A DNA stretch of 64,000 nt from Colwellia sp. 75C3. GTDB taxonomy: Bacteria; Pseudomonadota; Gammaproteobacteria; Enterobacterales; Alteromonadaceae. The stretch lies in the NCBI RefSeq assembly GCF_002836255.1, contig NZ_PJAU01000033.1:372001-436000 (forward strand), read 5' to 3'. Position numbers and translations under genes: made by a program. Shown here piece by piece: positions 21,798-29,237 of the stretch. The notes below the pieces were generated by a model. The model was not told the origin of the DNA. It did not search any database and saw only the letters and a program-made list of their open reading frames with translations. Within the stretch, counting starts at the first letter, position 1; each line of letters starts with the position of its first letter.

Positions 21798-22093
21798 TCA
21801 TGGAAATGATTTAATAAAAATGTAAACTTACCTGCCAATAGCTGAAGGTAATTATATTCCGGCATGAAATAAAGGAATAAAACGTTTAAGTTGATTGATG
21901 AGTAGAGAAATTAGTCGCGTAGTCAGACAATAGAAATTCAAACCTCTAGAATTTAAGGTAGGCTAACGAAATACAGCGTTTTTTTGCAGCTAATACGATC
22001 ATTATAGATTTACTAAAGTATAGGATATGGATAAGAGCAGTTTATGAAGTAAGAATTTATTCTGAATTTGAAAGAGGATATAGAAATTAAAAG

Positions 22094-22170
22094 TGGTCGG
22101 TGATGCAAGATTCGAACTTGCGACCCCTTGGACCCAAACCAAGTGCGCTACCAAGCTGCGCTAATCACCG
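22094..22170 (-). tRNA. tRNA-Pro (TGG), left copy
   Basis: 77 nt with encoded CCA. The acceptor stem CGGTGAT pairs with ATCACCG; anticodon loop TTTGGGA with TGG; T-loop TTCGAAT. Identical to the copy at 29039-29115. It lacks its own tRNA promoter because the upstream tRNA-His is truncated and replaced by islet sequence, so expression would need read-through from the islet operon. Confidence 0.95.
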
Positions 22171-22215
22171 ACATTTTATAACTTTTTATTTTCTACTTCA
22201 GGGAGAAGTAAAAAA

Positions 22216-22262
22216 TGGGGTGGCTAAAGGGACTTGAACCCTCGACAACCGGAATCACAATC
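22216..22262 (-). pseudogene. Truncated tRNA-His (3' part only)
   Basis: Matches the 3' end of tRNA-His at 29161-29237 from the CCA through the T arm and the 3' side of the anticodon stem, then diverges in the anticodon loop. The acceptor 5' strand, D arm and 5' anticodon stem are missing, so it cannot be functional. It marks the left islet junction. Confidence 0.93.
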
Positions 22263-22404
22263 ACGTTGTCGGTATAGTATTTAGTTTGATTAACGTATAT
22301 CAAGCTAGATATCACGAGTGTTATTCATGTTATAACTTGGATTGAAATGGAATTCATTAGTTTGGCAAACTCACAGAATGCTCACACAGTGAATTTTTCA
22401 TTAT

Positions 22405-23061
22405 CTAGTATAAAAAAGGTATTATTTTGTGCCTTTTCTTCAAATACTCTAGATATTCAGATCCCAAATGAATCGCCAAAAATGCTTCTTCAAATTTTAT
22501 TCTTCGGTAAAAAGCATAAAACAATATCAATAAAGAAATGAACGCTGCGACCCAAGAATGAAACATTAAGCCTGTTGCAACATAAGTGAGTAACGCACCA
22601 GAATAACCCGGATGGCAAACATATCGGTAGGGTCCTGTATCAACCACCTTTTGGTTTTCTGTAACACTAATATGCCAAGTAAAGTAATGTCCAAGTTCCA
22701 AAAAAGCCCAACTACGAAATAGTAAGCCAAATATTGCTAAAGCAGCCCCAATGATGGAAATAACACTCCACTGCATGGATCCTTGGTAATCGTTGAAAAC
22801 AAACTCAGCGAGTACGAATATTTGCGACAAATAGACAGCCCAAATAATGTGTAATGCGGTCCCCTTATCATGTTCGTCTTTTGCAGATTTAAACGGAGAA
22901 TAGTCTGGTTGAAACAATGAAGCCAAAATGCTTATTACAATCATCAGCTTTACTTTAGCGCTCTCCAACAAGTCGGGTTGAAAGAATGAAAATGCCAAAA
23001 CAAAAAGAAATGACAAGATGGTTCCCTTTATTAACTTAATACCAAAACCTTTAATGGTCAT
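22405..23061 (-). CDS. ICMT/PEMT-type membrane methyltransferase
   Basis: A 218-residue integral membrane protein with about five helices. The C-terminal half holds the conserved isoprenylcysteine-methyltransferase/phospholipid-methyltransferase signature: LGHYFTWHISV, VVDTGPYRYVCHPGYSGALL and, near the end, RRIKFEEAFL with the two Glu, binding S-adenosylmethionine. It should methylate a lipid-like carboxyl, amine or thiol at the membrane. It is the last gene of the islet operon, starting 3 bp after the exporter stop. The next downstream elements are the truncated tRNA-His and left tRNA-Pro on the same strand. Substrate unknown. Confidence 0.85.
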   Translation of the reverse strand: MTIKGFGIKLIKGTILSFLFVLAFSFFQPDLLESAKVKLMIVISILASLFQPDYSPFKSAKDEHDKGTALHIIWAVYLSQIFVLAEFVFNDYQGSMQWSVISIIGAALAIFGLLFRSWAFLELGHYFTWHISVTENQKVVDTGPYRYVCHPGYSGALLTYVATGLMFHSWVAAFISLLILFYAFYRRIKFEEAFLAIHLGSEYLEYLKKRHKIIPFLY

Positions 23062-23064
23062 CTC

Positions 23065-25179
23065 CTACTTCCTTTTATGAATCAATAAAGCTGCTGGTAA
23101 GATCAATAAGTCAAACACTAAGGCGCTAATAAAAGTAATAATAGTTAAGCTAGCAAACGTTGTATTTAACAAAAAATCTGAGAACATAAAAACACTAAAC
23201 CCAGACACGAGTGCAATTGATGTAAATATAATGGCTTGGCCAGCTAAATTTAAACTTACAGCTAGAGCTTGTGTTTTCGTCGTGTTTTTCTTATTGAGAT
23301 GTTCTTGATAGTGAAAGAGGAAGTGCGTTGTATCGTCTACAATAATCCCTAGTGAGCAAGCAGCAACAATAGAAACGGCCAAACCAACTTGTTGATACAG
23401 TAAAGCCCAAAACGCAAATGCTATCAAAATGGGCAGTGCATTGGTAAATAGCGCTACGGCCCCAAGCTTTAAGCTTTTGAAATAAAATGAGAACAAAACA
23501 GATAGGGTAATTAACATGATAATGACACCTACCATCATACTTTTTATATTTCGCTTTACTATATTAGCGAATAAAACGGATGGCCCGTGTCCACCGTGAA
23601 AAGCAATTGAATCCGTATTTTCAATTAGGTATTGTTGAAATTGAGTGTTAAATGACTGTATATACGTAGAATCAGCGTCCTTAAATACAATTGACATTTT
23701 AAACAACTTGCCACTTTGATCAATTAAGCCTCTTGCATGTAATATTTCGAAGTTACTTTTTATTTTTTTATATGACTGAGTTGCATCGTGCTCTTTATTT
23801 ATGATGGAATGAATAGAACGTACTTCCCAGACGTTATCGAATGTTTGAAAATGTGAAGCAACATTTGACATTTGAACAAAGAAATCACTATTCTCATTAG
23901 GCAGTTCATGTTTAGACTCCAGAATGAAATCAATTGAGTAAATGCCTGTTAAATTCTCAGAGACAAAATTAGCTTGGTGTTTGAACTCAGTTTTTGACGA
24001 AAACCAATCAGTGAATTTGTCGTTTACTTCCAGTTTTGAAACCAAACTGATGCTAATAGTAATTAATATTAGAGAAATGAGTAAAATGGCTATGCGAAAT
24101 TTATCAATCCATTTTAAGTAAGCGACCCAGTTAAACTTAAGTCTTGATTCAAACTTGATTGGCTTGTAAGCAAGTATCCAGGGTAATAATACAAAGTGAA
24201 TTAGTAGAACGGTTGCGACACCGAAGGCTGTAATATTTCCTAAATCTTGATAAGGAGGAGTATCTGTCAAATTAAGGCTTAAAAAGCCGATAAGCGTCGT
24301 TAGGCAGCCAAATAAAATGGGTTTTGCCGTTAACGCCGACCCTAACTTTAATCTTTGATGCCATGGTCCTTTTTGTTGCTCTATTGCTAAAAAAGCATGG
24401 AATGAACAAGCAATCGAAATGGTTAAAATAACAATTAACGACATTCCTGAAGGTGGCGTTAATTGAATGCCAACAAGCGTTGCCATACCTAATGAAATGA
24501 TATTACTTACACCCGCAACAAAAATTACAATGCCAGCCACAAAAAAAGATTGAAATAACCAAGCGGTTATTAAAAATAATATTATATTACTAGCAGGTAC
24601 TAGTTTAATAAGGTCATCTATTAAGTGGTATGCAAAAGCATCGTTCATCATCACAATGCCACTGGTATCAAATCTTAGGCTGGCGGTTCGTTTGCTAAAG
24701 ATAGCCGCAGTTTCTTTAATAAAAGTGGCTGATTCTATGACTGCATTCGGATTGTGTTTAGGCATCACAATCCGCACTTCTACCCCTGTTGAAGTTAAAG
24801 ATAAATTAAGTAGCGAAGGGGGGGATTGATTTGCGTTTTTTAGTTGCCCTAATAAACCTGTAGAGAAATTATTTGATTCTAGGTAAGGGTGGTTACTGAG
24901 AATAGAGGTGACAGATACTAGGTTTGGAGTCTCTAATAAATGTAAATGTATCTCTCGTAGTAAAGAGATATTACTTTCGTTCAATAACGTTCCGGAAACA
25001 GAAGAAATGACAAAGATAGCTGAGTCAGAACTCCCAAATGAATTTTCCATTTGAGTGAAGTCTTGCATGTCAGCGGTATCTTTCCCAAAGAACACGCGAT
25101 AGTCAGAAGCAATACCAATGTCTTTAAGCCCCCAAAGGCCAACTATCAATAATACCAGCAGAAGTAGCCTACTTTTCAT
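23065..25179 (-). CDS. MMPL/RND superfamily exporter
   Basis: A 704-residue inner-membrane transporter of single-gene MMPL type. A first helix is followed by a periplasmic porter domain (ASDYRVFFGKDTADMQDF onward), helices 2-6, a second half with helix 7, another porter domain and helices 8-12. Helix 10 carries the proton-relay motif SLGIIVDDTTHFLFHY with the Asp pair. The start at 25179 has a GGGGGG ribosome site and overlaps the enolase-family gene by 11 bp; a longer frame to 25242 lies fully inside that gene. MMPL proteins export lipids or hopanoid-like molecules; together with the synthetic genes this suggests export of the islet's product. Confidence 0.9.
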   Translation of the reverse strand: MKSRLLLLVLLIVGLWGLKDIGIASDYRVFFGKDTADMQDFTQMENSFGSSDSAIFVISSVSGTLLNESNISLLREIHLHLLETPNLVSVTSILSNHPYLESNNFSTGLLGQLKNANQSPPSLLNLSLTSTGVEVRIVMPKHNPNAVIESATFIKETAAIFSKRTASLRFDTSGIVMMNDAFAYHLIDDLIKLVPASNIILFLITAWLFQSFFVAGIVIFVAGVSNIISLGMATLVGIQLTPPSGMSLIVILTISIACSFHAFLAIEQQKGPWHQRLKLGSALTAKPILFGCLTTLIGFLSLNLTDTPPYQDLGNITAFGVATVLLIHFVLLPWILAYKPIKFESRLKFNWVAYLKWIDKFRIAILLISLILITISISLVSKLEVNDKFTDWFSSKTEFKHQANFVSENLTGIYSIDFILESKHELPNENSDFFVQMSNVASHFQTFDNVWEVRSIHSIINKEHDATQSYKKIKSNFEILHARGLIDQSGKLFKMSIVFKDADSTYIQSFNTQFQQYLIENTDSIAFHGGHGPSVLFANIVKRNIKSMMVGVIIMLITLSVLFSFYFKSLKLGAVALFTNALPILIAFAFWALLYQQVGLAVSIVAACSLGIIVDDTTHFLFHYQEHLNKKNTTKTQALAVSLNLAGQAIIFTSIALVSGFSVFMFSDFLLNTTFASLTIITFISALVFDLLILPAALLIHKRK

Positions 25180-26239
25180 AATGTACCCCCCAGCCGAATA
25201 ATACTTCTTTTTTGTTTTGTGGGTATACACCACCATAGCCAACTTTCAATTGAGGTTGAAAAGGATCTCGCTTTAACAACCAATTACTAAAACCACCTTC
25301 CACAGCTAAACAAGGTTGTTTACACGATTGAAATATAACTTGTTGTGCATTACCTAATAAACTACTTTCACCAACATGGGATCCCAGAATAAATGGAATA
25401 TCTAACTCGGTTAACATCCTTATCGCTTGAATTGTTCTTAAAACGCCGCCCAATTTAGATATTCGTACGTTTGCAATAAACACGTCTTTATATTTACTTA
25501 TGTCAGCTACATGTTTAGGTGTTATAAAACTCTCATCTAGTATTATTTTGCAGTCTAATGCATACGCTACTTTAACCATACCTTCATAATCAAATGGTTT
25601 AATCGGCTCTTCTAGTGCCCAAAACGCCCCCTTTAAATCAGATAAATTATCAATACAATCTTGCGGTGTTGTCCAAAGGTTATTAGCGTCTAAGCGCACT
25701 TTAGACGGATAAATTCTAAGTAGTCGCATTAACTTAATGACGATTTTGTTTGAATGAATAGAGCTGCCAATTTTTAATTTAAAGTCAGAAAATCCCATTA
25801 ATTTAAACAATAACGCCTTTTTTAACGATTTATAGCCAACAATGGCCGAAAAATATTGTTGATGCTCATGTTGTTCAAGGCCTAAAATTTTACTGGCAGG
25901 TTGTTTCGTCACTTTGGCGAACACATCTATAATGGCCATTTCTAACGCGCACCATGCAGCGGGGTTAGTGTCTATTAATTTTGAATTTTCGTTAACCCAT
26001 TGCATTAAATCGGTCATCGATTTAATGTGACTAATATTATCAGCGTAATGAGTAATAAACAGGTTACAGGATTTAATCGTTTCTCCAGTAACATACATTC
26101 GAGGGCAAGACTCACCAAAACCTACTTCATTATCTTCTGTTGCTTTTACAAAGAAGGACTCAGTGTGAGCACGTTCATAACTTGCATGAGAAAATTTTGA
26201 TTTGAATGGAATAGAAAGGGGCAATATACTAATTTTCAC
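25169..26239 (-). CDS. Enolase superfamily enzyme (muconate-cycloisomerase subgroup)
   Basis: A 356-residue cytosolic enzyme. The N-terminal capping domain is followed by a barrel with all catalytic positions visible: KxK (Lys154 and Lys156, FKLKIGS), metal ligands Asp184 (RLDANNLW), Glu210/211 (ALEEPI) and Asp235 (ILDESF), and the second acid-base Lys262 (ISKLGG). This is the pattern of dipeptide epimerases, o-succinylbenzoate synthase, N-acylamino acid racemases and cycloisomerases. The exact reaction cannot be told. The genes before and after overlap it by 11 bp each, so translation is coupled. A racemase or epimerase acting on an amino-acid-like unit would fit the adjacent GH3 domain. Confidence 0.88.
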   Translation of the reverse strand: MKISILPLSIPFKSKFSHASYERAHTESFFVKATEDNEVGFGESCPRMYVTGETIKSCNLFITHYADNISHIKSMTDLMQWVNENSKLIDTNPAAWCALEMAIIDVFAKVTKQPASKILGLEQHEHQQYFSAIVGYKSLKKALLFKLMGFSDFKLKIGSSIHSNKIVIKLMRLLRIYPSKVRLDANNLWTTPQDCIDNLSDLKGAFWALEEPIKPFDYEGMVKVAYALDCKIILDESFITPKHVADISKYKDVFIANVRISKLGGVLRTIQAIRMLTELDIPFILGSHVGESSLLGNAQQVIFQSCKQPCLAVEGGFSNWLLKRDPFQPQLKVGYGGVYPQNKKEVLFGWGVHYEK

Positions 26240-28676
26240 ACATCACCTCTTTTTCAAAATAGAGGGGTAACTCATGGTCGCTTATTAAGTGCATGTATTT
26301 AGATTGCCAATATCTTGATTGATTTGCTGTTACTGTTTTTTCGTACTTTATCCCGGAACCTGCTTTTAATAGAACGACCTCGATTGGTGGTAATCTGCCA
26401 CTGTCGGTTTTATGCTTATATTCTTTATTACTGTCACACAAGTGGGAATGAAGTAACTCGCTGGAAACAGCGTTAGTGCTTTCATAAAATACTTTATATA
26501 GGCCTAATTGAGGGTAACAAACAGCCAAAAAGAATCGAACGTCACTTTGCTTTGCTAATGCAAAGAAACTGACAAAATCGTGCTCTGTGAGTTTCTCTCC
26601 CGTTATATTAGTACAGCCTCGGCCCTTTCTAACAAAATCTAATGAGTACGTTTTATTAACCAAGCTGCCAGTTCTTACTATGTCGTTTATAAAGTATCGG
26701 TATAGGCCAGTTCGTGTGGTTACAATAATATAATATTCAGTATTCGGACTAAGTTCGTGAATTAAGTTAGTCGTTTGACAACCATTATCATATAAAGCAG
26801 GTTCAATAAACTCGTAAAAATTCTCATTTAGCAGAGGAATACACAAATTATTTTTAGCATCTACATTCACGGTTGCTCTGTATTCACTGCTAACTAAACC
26901 AACTTCAACGACATGGGCTTTATTTGGTAGTTGCTTAATTACAGCGGCTAACGGATAACCGCAACTTCCTTTCATCCAGCAGAATATGATCCTTAAATTG
27001 GGGAAATAATCTTTAATCTTTATTGTGGTTTTTTGAAGAACCTCAATGGCACAATTTATAGTATTTGTAGATGTTTTCAGTAATAATTTTGCAAGGACTT
27101 GCTCACACTTATCGCTGTAGATAGGTCGTGAAGGTCTAGCTTGAAGAATTTGACATAACTCGTCACTGAACTTATTCATTGTTTCAGTGAGTTTAATAAG
27201 AGTTGATGGATTTGCCGTTGAAAATAAAGAGACGTTCGGGCTGCAAAGTGCCGTAGCGGCTAAAATAAAATATCGCTCGTGGTAATCACCCACCAAATAT
27301 GTTTCTTTGATTACCGTATTTTTATTCTTAATTATCCTTGGCGATTGAGCATAAATTTTTCCCGACATAGAACCTGCTGGCGTTTGCTCTACATAGTCTT
27401 CAATTTCATTATCAACAAGTACGAAACTGTCGCCCCAAAATACTTCAGGGTAATTTGATAGTACGCTATAGACAGAGATTTGTTGAGATCTCGCTAAAGC
27501 CTTTAAACTTGATAATGTCGCCGGGATATTTTTGGGTTCACCTGTTGTTCCGCTTGATTTAGCTAAATAAACGATAGTTTCGTTAACGAGTTCTGACGGT
27601 GATGATTTAAGACTTTTTTCTATTAACGAACTAAAATCCGAAAAAACAGCAATGGGTACGTTTTTTTGAAAATCAGTATAAGAAGCGATGCCTTTAAAGG
27701 TATTTCTGATACCAAAAAGTGTTGTTTCGTTCTGACCTAATATTTCAGAGAGTGTTTTTTGTTGCTGTTTTAAGGGATCAGAGCTTGCCAATACCAACTG
27801 AGACCAATAGCGCTTAGTCTTCATTTTTATCAATAAATTAAGTAATCCCCATCGGGAAAGAGGATGAAAGATTTGTTTGATAAAGGTATTGGGGGCGATA
27901 TCAAGTGTACCCACCTTGGTTACTTTGTTTGAATAGTGACGGTAACTTCCAAAGACATGATCCCAAATCATGCAATTGTTACCGTAATTACAATTTGCTT
28001 TGTGGTGATTAATATCATGGTGTAATCGATGGTTCTCTACTGTAGCAAATATATAATTCAAGTAACCAAAATTGAGCCTTAAATTAGCATGTTGCAATAA
28101 TCCATTGACGGCGTAGAACACATAATAAAATGCGATAAGTTCACTAGTAGCACCGATCAAGACAAAAACGAGAATATCAGCAAAGAACTCCACTATTTTG
28201 TCGATAGGATGAAAACGACCCGTATTTAACGAGTAAATGTTTTTCGGTTGGTGATGAACATCATGCAACGCCCAAAGAACAGGGAGCTTATGGCTCAGAC
28301 GATGCCACCAATACTGCATTAACTCGCCCAGTAAAATCATGACTAAAAACTGTAAAAATAATGGCCACTGATTAGGCCAAACATCGAAAATGATAGCGTT
28401 AGAAAAGCCTTTATTAACGAGGTAAGTAGCAAGCATATACTTTACTAATAGAATCAAAATTAGCTGGACACCAAAAAGGTAAAGCAAATCTTGTTTGAAT
28501 TCATCAGCTTTAGGTAGCCAATTTTTTCTATAGGGAAAACGAAACTCTAGAAAGATAATTGATAAGGCAGGAATAACAACCGCGACGTACATAGCAAATT
28601 CATGAGGGATATTTAGAGATAGCAACCCTAGTAGGGATAGCAAGGTTAGCAATAATAATGAAAAGTATATAAACAA
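26229..28676 (-). CDS. Fusion: fatty-acid/sterol hydroxylase plus GH3-type adenylating enzyme
   Basis: An 815-residue two-domain protein. Residues 1-255 are a membrane-bound di-iron hydroxylase with helices and His boxes HRLSH (125-129), HDVHH (138-142) and HRLHH with NHH (216-225). Residues about 300-815 resemble the GH3 acyl-adenylate/amide synthetase family: ATP motif SSGTTGEPK (374-382), the RYFINDIVRTG region and the late TGEKLTEHDF motif. This pairs hydroxylation of a lipid with activation of a carboxyl group. The apparent start is TTG 28676 in a seven-T run; an ATG at 28687 would be in frame if the run had one more T. First gene of the islet operon. Confidence 0.85.
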   Translation of the reverse strand: MFIYFSLLLLTLLSLLGLLSLNIPHEFAMYVAVVIPALSIIFLEFRFPYRKNWLPKADEFKQDLLYLFGVQLILILLVKYMLATYLVNKGFSNAIIFDVWPNQWPLFLQFLVMILLGELMQYWWHRLSHKLPVLWALHDVHHQPKNIYSLNTGRFHPIDKIVEFFADILVFVLIGATSELIAFYYVFYAVNGLLQHANLRLNFGYLNYIFATVENHRLHHDINHHKANCNYGNNCMIWDHVFGSYRHYSNKVTKVGTLDIAPNTFIKQIFHPLSRWGLLNLLIKMKTKRYWSQLVLASSDPLKQQQKTLSEILGQNETTLFGIRNTFKGIASYTDFQKNVPIAVFSDFSSLIEKSLKSSPSELVNETIVYLAKSSGTTGEPKNIPATLSSLKALARSQQISVYSVLSNYPEVFWGDSFVLVDNEIEDYVEQTPAGSMSGKIYAQSPRIIKNKNTVIKETYLVGDYHERYFILAATALCSPNVSLFSTANPSTLIKLTETMNKFSDELCQILQARPSRPIYSDKCEQVLAKLLLKTSTNTINCAIEVLQKTTIKIKDYFPNLRIIFCWMKGSCGYPLAAVIKQLPNKAHVVEVGLVSSEYRATVNVDAKNNLCIPLLNENFYEFIEPALYDNGCQTTNLIHELSPNTEYYIIVTTRTGLYRYFINDIVRTGSLVNKTYSLDFVRKGRGCTNITGEKLTEHDFVSFFALAKQSDVRFFLAVCYPQLGLYKVFYESTNAVSSELLHSHLCDSNKEYKHKTDSGRLPPIEVVLLKAGSGIKYEKTVTANQSRYWQSKYMHLISDHELPLYFEKEVMCEN

Positions 28677-28983
28677 AAAAAGTCCATTTTCAGCTGAAAT
28701 AAATTAAGATCATTTCGTCATCAAATAACCTAACAACTATACTTAAGCATATTCAACCTAAAGGTACCATACAGCAAATAGCTTTTAACTCAAGACTAGA
28801 TAAATATATATTTAACATAAAATTAACAAGAGATTATATAACTAAACAAGTTTATAGCTTATAGCGTGGTTGTTTAAACAAAGACTATGAACTGATAGTG
28901 GGAGTATGGACTTCTTCATGGATAAATGTATAACAAATTAGACTTAATTAGCTTCAAATATTCACAGGGTATGTATAGGGGGT
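28677..28983. promoter_or_regulatory. Upstream region of the islet operon
   Basis: AT-rich, with no gene. A -10-like TATAAT on the minus strand lies at 28833-28838, but its -35 match is poor. It probably contains the promoter for the four-gene islet operon, since the genes downstream are gapless. Confidence 0.35.
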
Positions 28984-29207
28984 AGTTTATGAAGTAAGAA
29001 TTTATTCTGAATTTGAAAGAGGATATAGAAATTAAAAGTGGTCGGTGATGCAAGATTCGAACTTGCGACCCCTTGGACCCAAACCAAGTGCGCTACCAAG
29101 CTGCGCTAATCACCGACATTTTATAACTTTTTATTTTCTACTTCAGGGAGAAGTAAAAAATGGGGTGGCTAAAGGGACTTGAACCCTCGACAACCGGAAT
29201 CACAATC
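28984..29207. repeat. 224-bp direct repeat, right copy
   Basis: Counterpart of 22039-22262. Here the repeat runs on into the 5' half of a complete tRNA-His, so this copy retains the functional tRNA unit and its promoter. Confidence 0.95.
29039..29115 (-). tRNA. tRNA-Pro (TGG), right copy
   Basis: 77 nt with encoded CCA, same sequence as the left copy. It lies 45 bp downstream of tRNA-His on the same strand and is probably co-transcribed with it from the promoter at 29309-29338. Confidence 0.97.
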
Positions 29208-29237
29208 CGGGGCTCTACCAACTGAGCTATAGCCACC
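29161..29237 (-). tRNA. tRNA-His (GTG)
   Basis: 77 nt including the extra G at -1 and encoded CCA. The acceptor stem GTGGCTA pairs with TAGCCAC, with discriminator C as expected for bacterial tRNA-His. Anticodon loop TTGTGAT with GTG. First gene of the tRNA-His-tRNA-Pro operon. Confidence 0.98.

Follow-up and report, generated by a model that had tools for sequence, protein, structure and literature searches.

A probable mobile tRNA-His cassette of Colwellia sp. 75C3 with a probable aminolipid operon built on a hydroxylase-GH3 fusion and an enolase-superfamily enzyme

A stretch of 64,000 nucleotides from Colwellia sp. 75C3 (assembly GCF_002836255.1, contig NZ_PJAU01000033.1, positions 372,001-436,000 of the forward strand; hereafter the window, whose positions are used below) contains a small islet (22263-28983) with four minus-strand open reading frames (ORFs) within 22405-28676. 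This islet is a cassette, probably a mobile one, within an additive tRNA island, and the operon on it probably serves the production of an aminolipid, where an N-acyl amino acid would be formed, hydroxylated, changed at its alpha-carbon, methylated and exported. More tentatively, it may represent a bacterial aminolipid pathway not described so far, in which one polypeptide forms and hydroxylates the N-acyl amino acid and a new enolase with the Lys-to-Arg change alters the headgroup at its alpha-carbon. The pathway would then yield N-acyl dehydro- or D-amino-acid lipids, and tRNA-His cassettes lacking a recombinase would have carried it from one family to another.

The genes are transcribed in the order fusion, enolase-superfamily enzyme, exporter and methyltransferase, as seen in the ORF list, joined by an 11-bp overlap, a second 11-bp overlap and a 3-bp gap. 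As assigned by Pfam and NCBIfam, the first encodes a hydroxylase-GH3 fusion of 815 amino acids, listed from a TTG codon (26229-28676, minus strand, as are the others), followed by an enolase-superfamily enzyme of 356 amino acids that resembles dipeptide epimerases and NSAR and has, in the alignment, Arg259 in place of the second catalytic lysine (25169-26239), a HAE3/MMPL-type RND exporter of 725 amino acids, also listed from TTG (23065-25242), and an ICMT/PEMT-type membrane methyltransferase of 218 amino acids (22405-23061). The exporter likely starts at an in-frame ATG at 25179, which yields its 11-bp overlap with the enolase gene. The initial annotation of this DNA had given the same order, overlaps and gap, in agreement with the ORF coordinates, and the four families it named are borne out, as FA_hydroxylase, GH3, MR_MLE_C, MMPL, ICMT and PEMT all score above the Pfam cut-offs. 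Regarding the start of the fusion, its frame opens at TTG (28669-28700), and the ATG used by the copy in a second genome, DT_94, lies upstream, out of frame and ahead of a stretch of seven T. This opening may reflect a frameshift, a sequencing error or a genuine change of start.

The hydroxylase, the GH3 enzyme and the enolase-superfamily enzyme are also found together in other families of the class. Using the fusion as a query, 69 of 99 genomes of relatives (own included) were matched, mostly by the hydroxylase half, while the GH3 part was matched in four of the 99 (the window's genome, G078, G085 and G060). A GH3 profile matched 20 of the 369 genomes of the class; leaving out the window, the genes around GH3 were read in the other 19. 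In one of them (L082) the GH3 gene was not found by phmmer, and in G397 a hydroxylase match lying about 6.5 kb from GH3 was left out of the count. An enolase match (E <= 1e-4) stands near GH3 in four of the 19: G400, G419, G176, where the enolase gene is cut by a contig end, and G337. The last pair was rejected as a coincidence, its enolase gene lying beside MenE- and MenA-like ORFs, as judged by eye, and its GH3 match being weak (E 4e-7).

An enolase profile was made up of the sequences of the window, DT_94, G400, G419 and G078, on which its scores are inflated. It matched 1 of 39 genomes of the genus (609 bits; next best 151), 3 of 369 of the class (at least 565 bits; next best 165.5), 5 of 150 of the order of G419 (at least 417.7 bits; next best 146), 1 of 20 of the order of G400, and 2 of 299 of a phylum sample, both of them already known. 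Besides the window, seven genomes carry the three genes, reached through the fusion (DT_94), the GH3 profile (G400, G419) or the enolase profile (G492, G528, G533, G563). Hydroxylase, GH3 and enolase stand together in all eight loci, which come from eight families when DT_94 is taken as genome G982, its exporter being at matching contig coordinates; seven of the loci lie on a single stretch, and that of DT_94 on two contigs, whose ends break the fusion at residue 710/711. The hydroxylase and GH3 parts are fused in six of the eight and are separate, overlapping genes in the other two (G419, G492). As G492, G528, G533 and G563 were located by the enolase alone, the presence of both partners in all four is an independent result. 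The one locus read as a contrast from below the score gap (G510, 146 bits) has neither GH3 nor hydroxylase.

The pairwise distances of the three core proteins also correlate over the eight loci (Mantel r 0.93-0.97, p <= 0.0006), with part of this correlation contributed by the near-identical pair of the window and DT_94, and their FastTree trees share the groups window+DT_94, G419+G492 and G563+(G528+G533). Comparing the window with DT_94, the ratio of nonsynonymous to synonymous substitution rates (dN/dS) is 0.11 for the fusion (710 of 815 codons), 0.13 for the enolase (356), 0.14 for the exporter (725) and 0.08 for the methyltransferase (218), all four genes being under purifying selection, and their dS values are 0.52-0.64. 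These results bear on the possibility that a mobile islet brought together four unrelated genes by chance, which would fit the absence of the exporter and the methyltransferase from six of the eight loci within the stretches read. This explanation is strongly disfavoured, however, by the constancy of the three core genes, by the similar dS across all four, and by DT_94, where the enolase, exporter and methyltransferase genes also follow one another, at a different site, with the end of the fusion in front of them. The co-occurrence in other genomes by which the initial annotation proposed to check its operon is seen for the hydroxylase, GH3 and enolase in all eight loci, and for the exporter and the methyltransferase in only two of the eight.

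Two further arrangements were observed around these genes. A second GH3-enolase layout, combining GH3, enolase and an alpha/beta hydrolase but no hydroxylase, occurs at L033:8251-12064 and L069:66-2981 (where the enolase gene is cut by the contig end); the hydrolase of G078 matches many NCBIfam models weakly, OlsI included (25.2 bits, with a cut-off of 385). Moreover, a membrane protein of about 150 amino acids, with no family above cut-off, is encoded immediately ahead of the hydroxylase gene in five of the six triad loci outside the window and DT_94 (L064:11407-11853, L091:13045-13500 and L093:14904-15374, and inside the frames L090:12515-13447 and L092:12785-13426). Its copies score 57-154 bits against that of L093, and it was not found in G419 (L065), in DT_94 or in positions 15001-36000 of the window. 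In G563, a CocE/NonD-type hydrolase (L093:13104-14885, 366 bits) lies between this protein and the fusion.

The hydroxylase half of the fusion belongs to FA_hydroxylase (PF04116, residues 110-244, positions 27945-28349 on the minus strand), with 92.1 bits and a cut-off of 31. It carries the histidine boxes HRLSH, HDVHH and HRLHH at residues 125-129, 138-142 and 216-220, whose histidines are invariant in the eight loci. Its sole NCBIfam match up to an E of 1 is OlsE (NF052566), covering profile positions 38-291 of 293 with 142.8 bits, below the cut-off of 475; the unfused hydroxylase of G419 reaches 202.8 bits with this model. OlsE adds a hydroxyl group to the ornithine moiety of ornithine lipid (PMC3972451).

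The GH3 domains occupy residues 293-801 (26274-27800, minus strand), where GH3 (138.7 bits) and GH3_M (49.1 bits) lie above their Pfam cut-offs and GH3_C (20.5 bits) just below its own of 23.6. The three nucleotide-binding motifs, as defined in the accessible text of PMC12493201, are present at residues 374-382, 594-598 and 657-665, and S375 matches Ser S115 of OlsH, described there as essential. By its domains and motifs, the fusion falls among the GH3 acyl-amido synthetases, whose ATP-dependent amide formation it would be predicted to share. OlsH (NF052613) is the only GH3-type NCBIfam match of this half, reaching 52.6 bits compared to a cut-off of 620, next to one adenylation model at chance level (E 0.19); the GH3 proteins of G419 and G078 score 74.5 and 99.6 bits, with only weak AMP-binding models alongside. 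OlsH itself, published in 2025, makes N-acyl ornithine from a fatty acid, ATP and ornithine (PMC12493201, same text). With scores so far below both cut-offs, neither half counts as a member of its Ols family. The lipid-type, amide-forming product suggested by the initial annotation nevertheless agrees with the two Ols matches and with the existence of a GH3 enzyme for N-acyl ornithine.

Since both halves of the fusion match Ols enzymes, the operon could be taken for an OlsH-type ornithine-lipid pathway, where N-acyl ornithine is hydroxylated and then O-acylated by an acyltransferase of the host. In the OlsH work, ornithine lipid did appear in small amounts when OlsI was missing, which PMC12493201 ascribes to an E. 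coli acyltransferase. Such a pathway seems unlikely for the present operon, because the scores are far under the cut-offs, the islet has no OlsI-type alpha/beta-hydrolase gene, and the enolase and ICMT-like steps would have no role in the ornithine-lipid routes found described. On the other hand, the ten solved sequences matched by the GH3 half are all plant GH3 enzymes (acting on jasmonate, auxin, benzoates or acyl acids by name), and its motif III, GLYRYFIND, resembles that of plant GH3 more than that of OlsH, as judged by eye. The conjugated acid could then be aromatic, terpenoid or hormone-like, and the product, instead of a membrane lipid, a small molecule exported as a signal or toxin. 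This is rather improbable, as the plant matches are remote (best E 5e-11) and the OlsE-like fused partner, the HAE3/MMPL exporter and the ICMT-like membrane enzyme favour a lipid.

The enolase-superfamily enzyme is unusual in its residues. MR_MLE_C scores 73.4 bits, above its cut-off, and MR_MLE_N 15.2 bits, below it; the nearest solved relatives are the dipeptide epimerases 1jpm and 3jva, and named relatives include dipeptide epimerase, DgcA and NSAR/NAAAR, whose substrates are, among others, N-acylated or aminoacylated alpha-amino acids. A plasmid search returned nine records, all with less than 60% identity, and five of the eight matches listed are annotated as dipeptide epimerase. Aligned with the B. 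subtilis L-Ala-D/L-Glu epimerase, K160/K162, D191, E219 and D244 are all retained, as K154/K156, D184, E210 and D235, and Lys268, the other acid/base catalytic residue of that epimerase, corresponds to Arg259. Among nine sequences (the eight triad loci and G078), the KxK motif is kept in all, the three carboxylate metal ligands D184, E210 and D235 are invariant, and so is the arginine at the position of the second lysine, meaning that the combination of KxK and second lysine typical of dipeptide epimerases is lacking. The segment C45-P46-R47 is invariant among these relatives as well. The initial annotation was therefore mistaken in crediting the enzyme with all catalytic residues, because the second lysine is replaced by arginine in nine of nine.

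Dipeptide epimerases and racemases employ that second lysine in a two-base mechanism. Because the second base is Arg and not Lys, plain racemisation would be no more likely than a one-base, one-sided reaction, and the epimerisation or racemisation proposed in the initial annotation is weakened by the same conserved change. Still, the enzyme may be an ordinary N-acyl amino acid epimerase with Arg259 as its second base, the operon then making a D-amino-acid lipid. This is a real, though doubtful, possibility: the closest relatives of solved structure go by the name of dipeptide epimerase, with racemases among the others, and KxK and all metal ligands are kept in the nine sequences, whereas the lysine of the two-base mechanism is arginine in each of them. 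Between dehydration and epimerisation, the sequence alone allows no choice.

Regarding the last two genes, the exporter reaches 27.4 bits with MMPL (cut-off 20.5) and 80.9 bits with TIGR00921, below the NCBIfam cut-off of 351.9. The proton-relay Asp pair attributed to it by the initial annotation is found in one half, as D636-D637, and residues 270-285 of the other half contain no Asp, the halves aligning so weakly that the pairing is uncertain. Among 247 genomes of the order, the copies of the window and DT_94 score 1629 and 1651 bits, and all others at most 313. The methyltransferase matches ICMT (65.4 bits) and PEMT (55.8 bits), both above cut-off, and scores 72.9 bits with the protein-S-isoprenylcysteine methyltransferase model NF040696, short of its cut-off of 160. 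ICMT accepts N-acetyl-S-farnesylcysteine, an N-acyl amino acid, and for that reason an ICMT-like enzyme may methylate the alpha-carboxylate of the lipid. Neither an exporter nor an ICMT-like gene was seen at E <= 1e-4 in the 19 GH3 neighbourhoods or at G078.

Considering these assignments, the preferred aminolipid pathway would begin with the GH3 half, which on its family and motifs would adenylate a carboxylic acid in its free form (most likely a fatty acid) before coupling it to an amino acid through the alpha-amine. The OlsE-like di-iron domain of the fusion would then hydroxylate the resulting N-acyl amino acid, most likely on its amino-acid part, and the enolase-superfamily enzyme would take the alpha-proton, leading either to loss of the beta-hydroxyl and a dehydro-amino acid or to a one-way epimerisation. 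In the version of the window and DT_94, the ICMT-like enzyme would methylate the lipid, plausibly at its free alpha-carboxylate, and the HAE3/MMPL pump would carry it outward. We infer every one of these chemical steps; what the sequences show is the anatomy, the motifs, the linkage, the selection and the transfer.

Several points weigh against this pathway. Regarding the linkage, the exporter and the ICMT-like gene accompany the core in just the window and DT_94; 15 of the 19 other GH3 loci have no enolase match, several of them being short contigs or contig ends where absence means little; one of the four GH3-linked enolase matches, G337, is a menaquinone cluster; and the GH3-enolase loci of G078 and G176 carry an alpha/beta hydrolase, with no hydroxylase found beside them. 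The deep branching differs among the three trees, that of the hydroxylase departing from the other two, and one close pair feeds the Mantel correlation. Regarding the chemistry, the OlsE and OlsH matches are so far below the equivalog cut-offs that the substrate cannot be deduced, the GH3 substrate might be something other than a fatty acid, and OlsE acts at C4 of ornithine and not at C3, going by the title of a reference in PMC11631085. The enolase also matches cycloisomerase, OSBS and dehydratase models of NCBIfam, the islet holds no acyltransferase gene, and the fusion ORF of the window starts at TTG behind seven T.

The operon lies on an islet placed exactly between two direct repeats of 224 nt that are 100% identical, so that the small islet of the initial annotation is supported and extended by these repeats and by an inner end recurring in the genus. 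Its guanine and cytosine content is 33-37% in 1-kb segments, compared to 39-44% in most segments of the flanking TonB-receptor and RND genes. The left repeat (22039-22262, minus strand) comprises a whole tRNA-Pro and the tRNA-His from position 30 to its 3' end, a boundary in the anticodon stem four bases ahead of the anticodon. The right one (28984-29207, minus) overlaps, in the tRNA search, tRNA-Pro (TGG) at 29039-29115 and an intact tRNA-His (GTG) at 29161-29236, both on the minus strand, the latter being the presumed target gene. A 7-bp dyad with a 15-nt spacer spans the junction of repeat and islet (22243-22271) and might serve a tyrosine recombinase as its core site; the stretch as a whole folds in an unexceptional way (z -1.59).

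Other genomes of the genus also contain the inner end of the islet (22263-22412), next to partial copies of tRNA-His. Counting from the matches listed, 15 ends in 9 of the 39 genomes (window included) cover over 50 bp of the inner part, of which 117-150 bp recur, and a partial tRNA-His stands beside it in eight of the nine (own included; within about 40 bases in G032), with none directly beside in G017. Cargo differs between units, as judged by eye, and includes a sulfatase-like gene in G019 and, in G032, at the same tRNA-His site by the same RND gene, a small secreted or outer-membrane-like protein; in G029 and G038 both tRNA genes stand beside the RND gene and the islet is absent. Cargo that changes from one genome to the next and is enclosed by repeats of a tRNA 3' part is that of an additive tRNA island. 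A recombinase is lacking from the islet, whose ORFs of at least 90 aa are the four genes only, and with it the tyrosine recombinase of their own that marks tycheposons. No integrase was recognised by eye, no profile scan being made, among the ORFs listed for the cassette units (at least 95 or 120 aa, judged on the first part), with an IS-type transposase fragment in L141 only. Tyrosine recombinases are many in seven genomes searched, none at an islet end by contig and coordinate, the contigs being short.

Units bounded by partial tRNA-His copies and the common inner end of 117-150 bp form a family in the genus (window 22205-22412; L140-L145, L148, L166, L167 and L169), some of them in tandem, as for two ends 4.3 kb apart in L141. 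In G003 (L139:5939-14576), three copies of the tRNA-His 3' part are spaced by 4.4 and 4.2 kb, the last being the real tRNA-His gene, in the manner of a cassette array.

The operon has been transferred horizontally between families. Between the window and DT_94, the dS of groEL, the sole yardstick gene, is 1.20, and DNA identity is about 87% for the operon and 77-78% for groESL; because groEL diverged about twice as much as the operon, the operon must have moved. In DT_94 it comes after groEL on its contig, and on the two operon contigs ARAGORN found no tRNA and the 224-bp repeat has no real match.

The significance of these results is that a module of hydroxylase, GH3 and enolase, kept intact in eight families, points to a second GH3 pathway specific enough to be tested. 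Should the enolase indeed act on a lipid headgroup, this would be an unusual role for its superfamily, and the conserved replacement of a catalytic residue would call for an explanation. The operon also illustrates how such a pathway moves between families, here on a tRNA-gene cassette. The statement of the initial annotation that no pathway with this set was described needs narrowing, since GH3-dependent aminolipid synthesis was reported in 2025 (PMC12493201, as far as its available text goes), although not with these genes. The operon thus appears to be of that known kind, and its gene set was absent from the literature matches listed, which is weak evidence of absence.

Like the OlsH/OlsI/OlsG pathway of Singulisphaera acidiphila, as presented in the available part of PMC12493201, the operon places a GH3 enzyme, with three motifs and an essential serine, among lipid-tailoring genes; unlike it, the GH3 enzyme is fused to a di-iron hydroxylase and accompanied by an enolase, an ICMT-like enzyme and an exporter, without an OlsI-type hydrolase. 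The same text describes bacterial GH3 homologues as widespread, those outside planctomycetes possibly using other amino acids, with functions open. The OlsE headgroup hydroxylase resembles the hydroxylase half as its sole NCBIfam match and differs by a score below the cut-off and by the fusion to GH3 in six of eight loci. Thalassotalic acids, stieleriacines and kyonggic acids are bacterial N-acyl (dehydro)tyrosines, several of them carrying a 2,3-double bond in their amino-acid part (PMC12479983, seen in part); the route proposed there, with NasY, a nitroreductase and a ThiF-like protein, was considered and set aside, none of these being among the four genes. With the dipeptide epimerase/NSAR/DgcA branch, the enolase shares sequence family, KxK and three metal ligands, and departs from it by the arginine, the invariant C45-P46-R47 and the linkage to GH3. 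Finally, the accessible portions of PMC4119200, on the additive flexible genomic islands that Alteromonas carries at tRNA genes, and PMC10872708, on tycheposons, describe a tRNA as the insertion target of cassettes. The islet resembles both in its tRNA-sited cargo and repeats of the tRNA 3' part, and it is set apart from what is described there by the lack of a recombinase gene, a 224-bp repeat that includes a whole second tRNA, and a conserved inner end of 117-150 bp.

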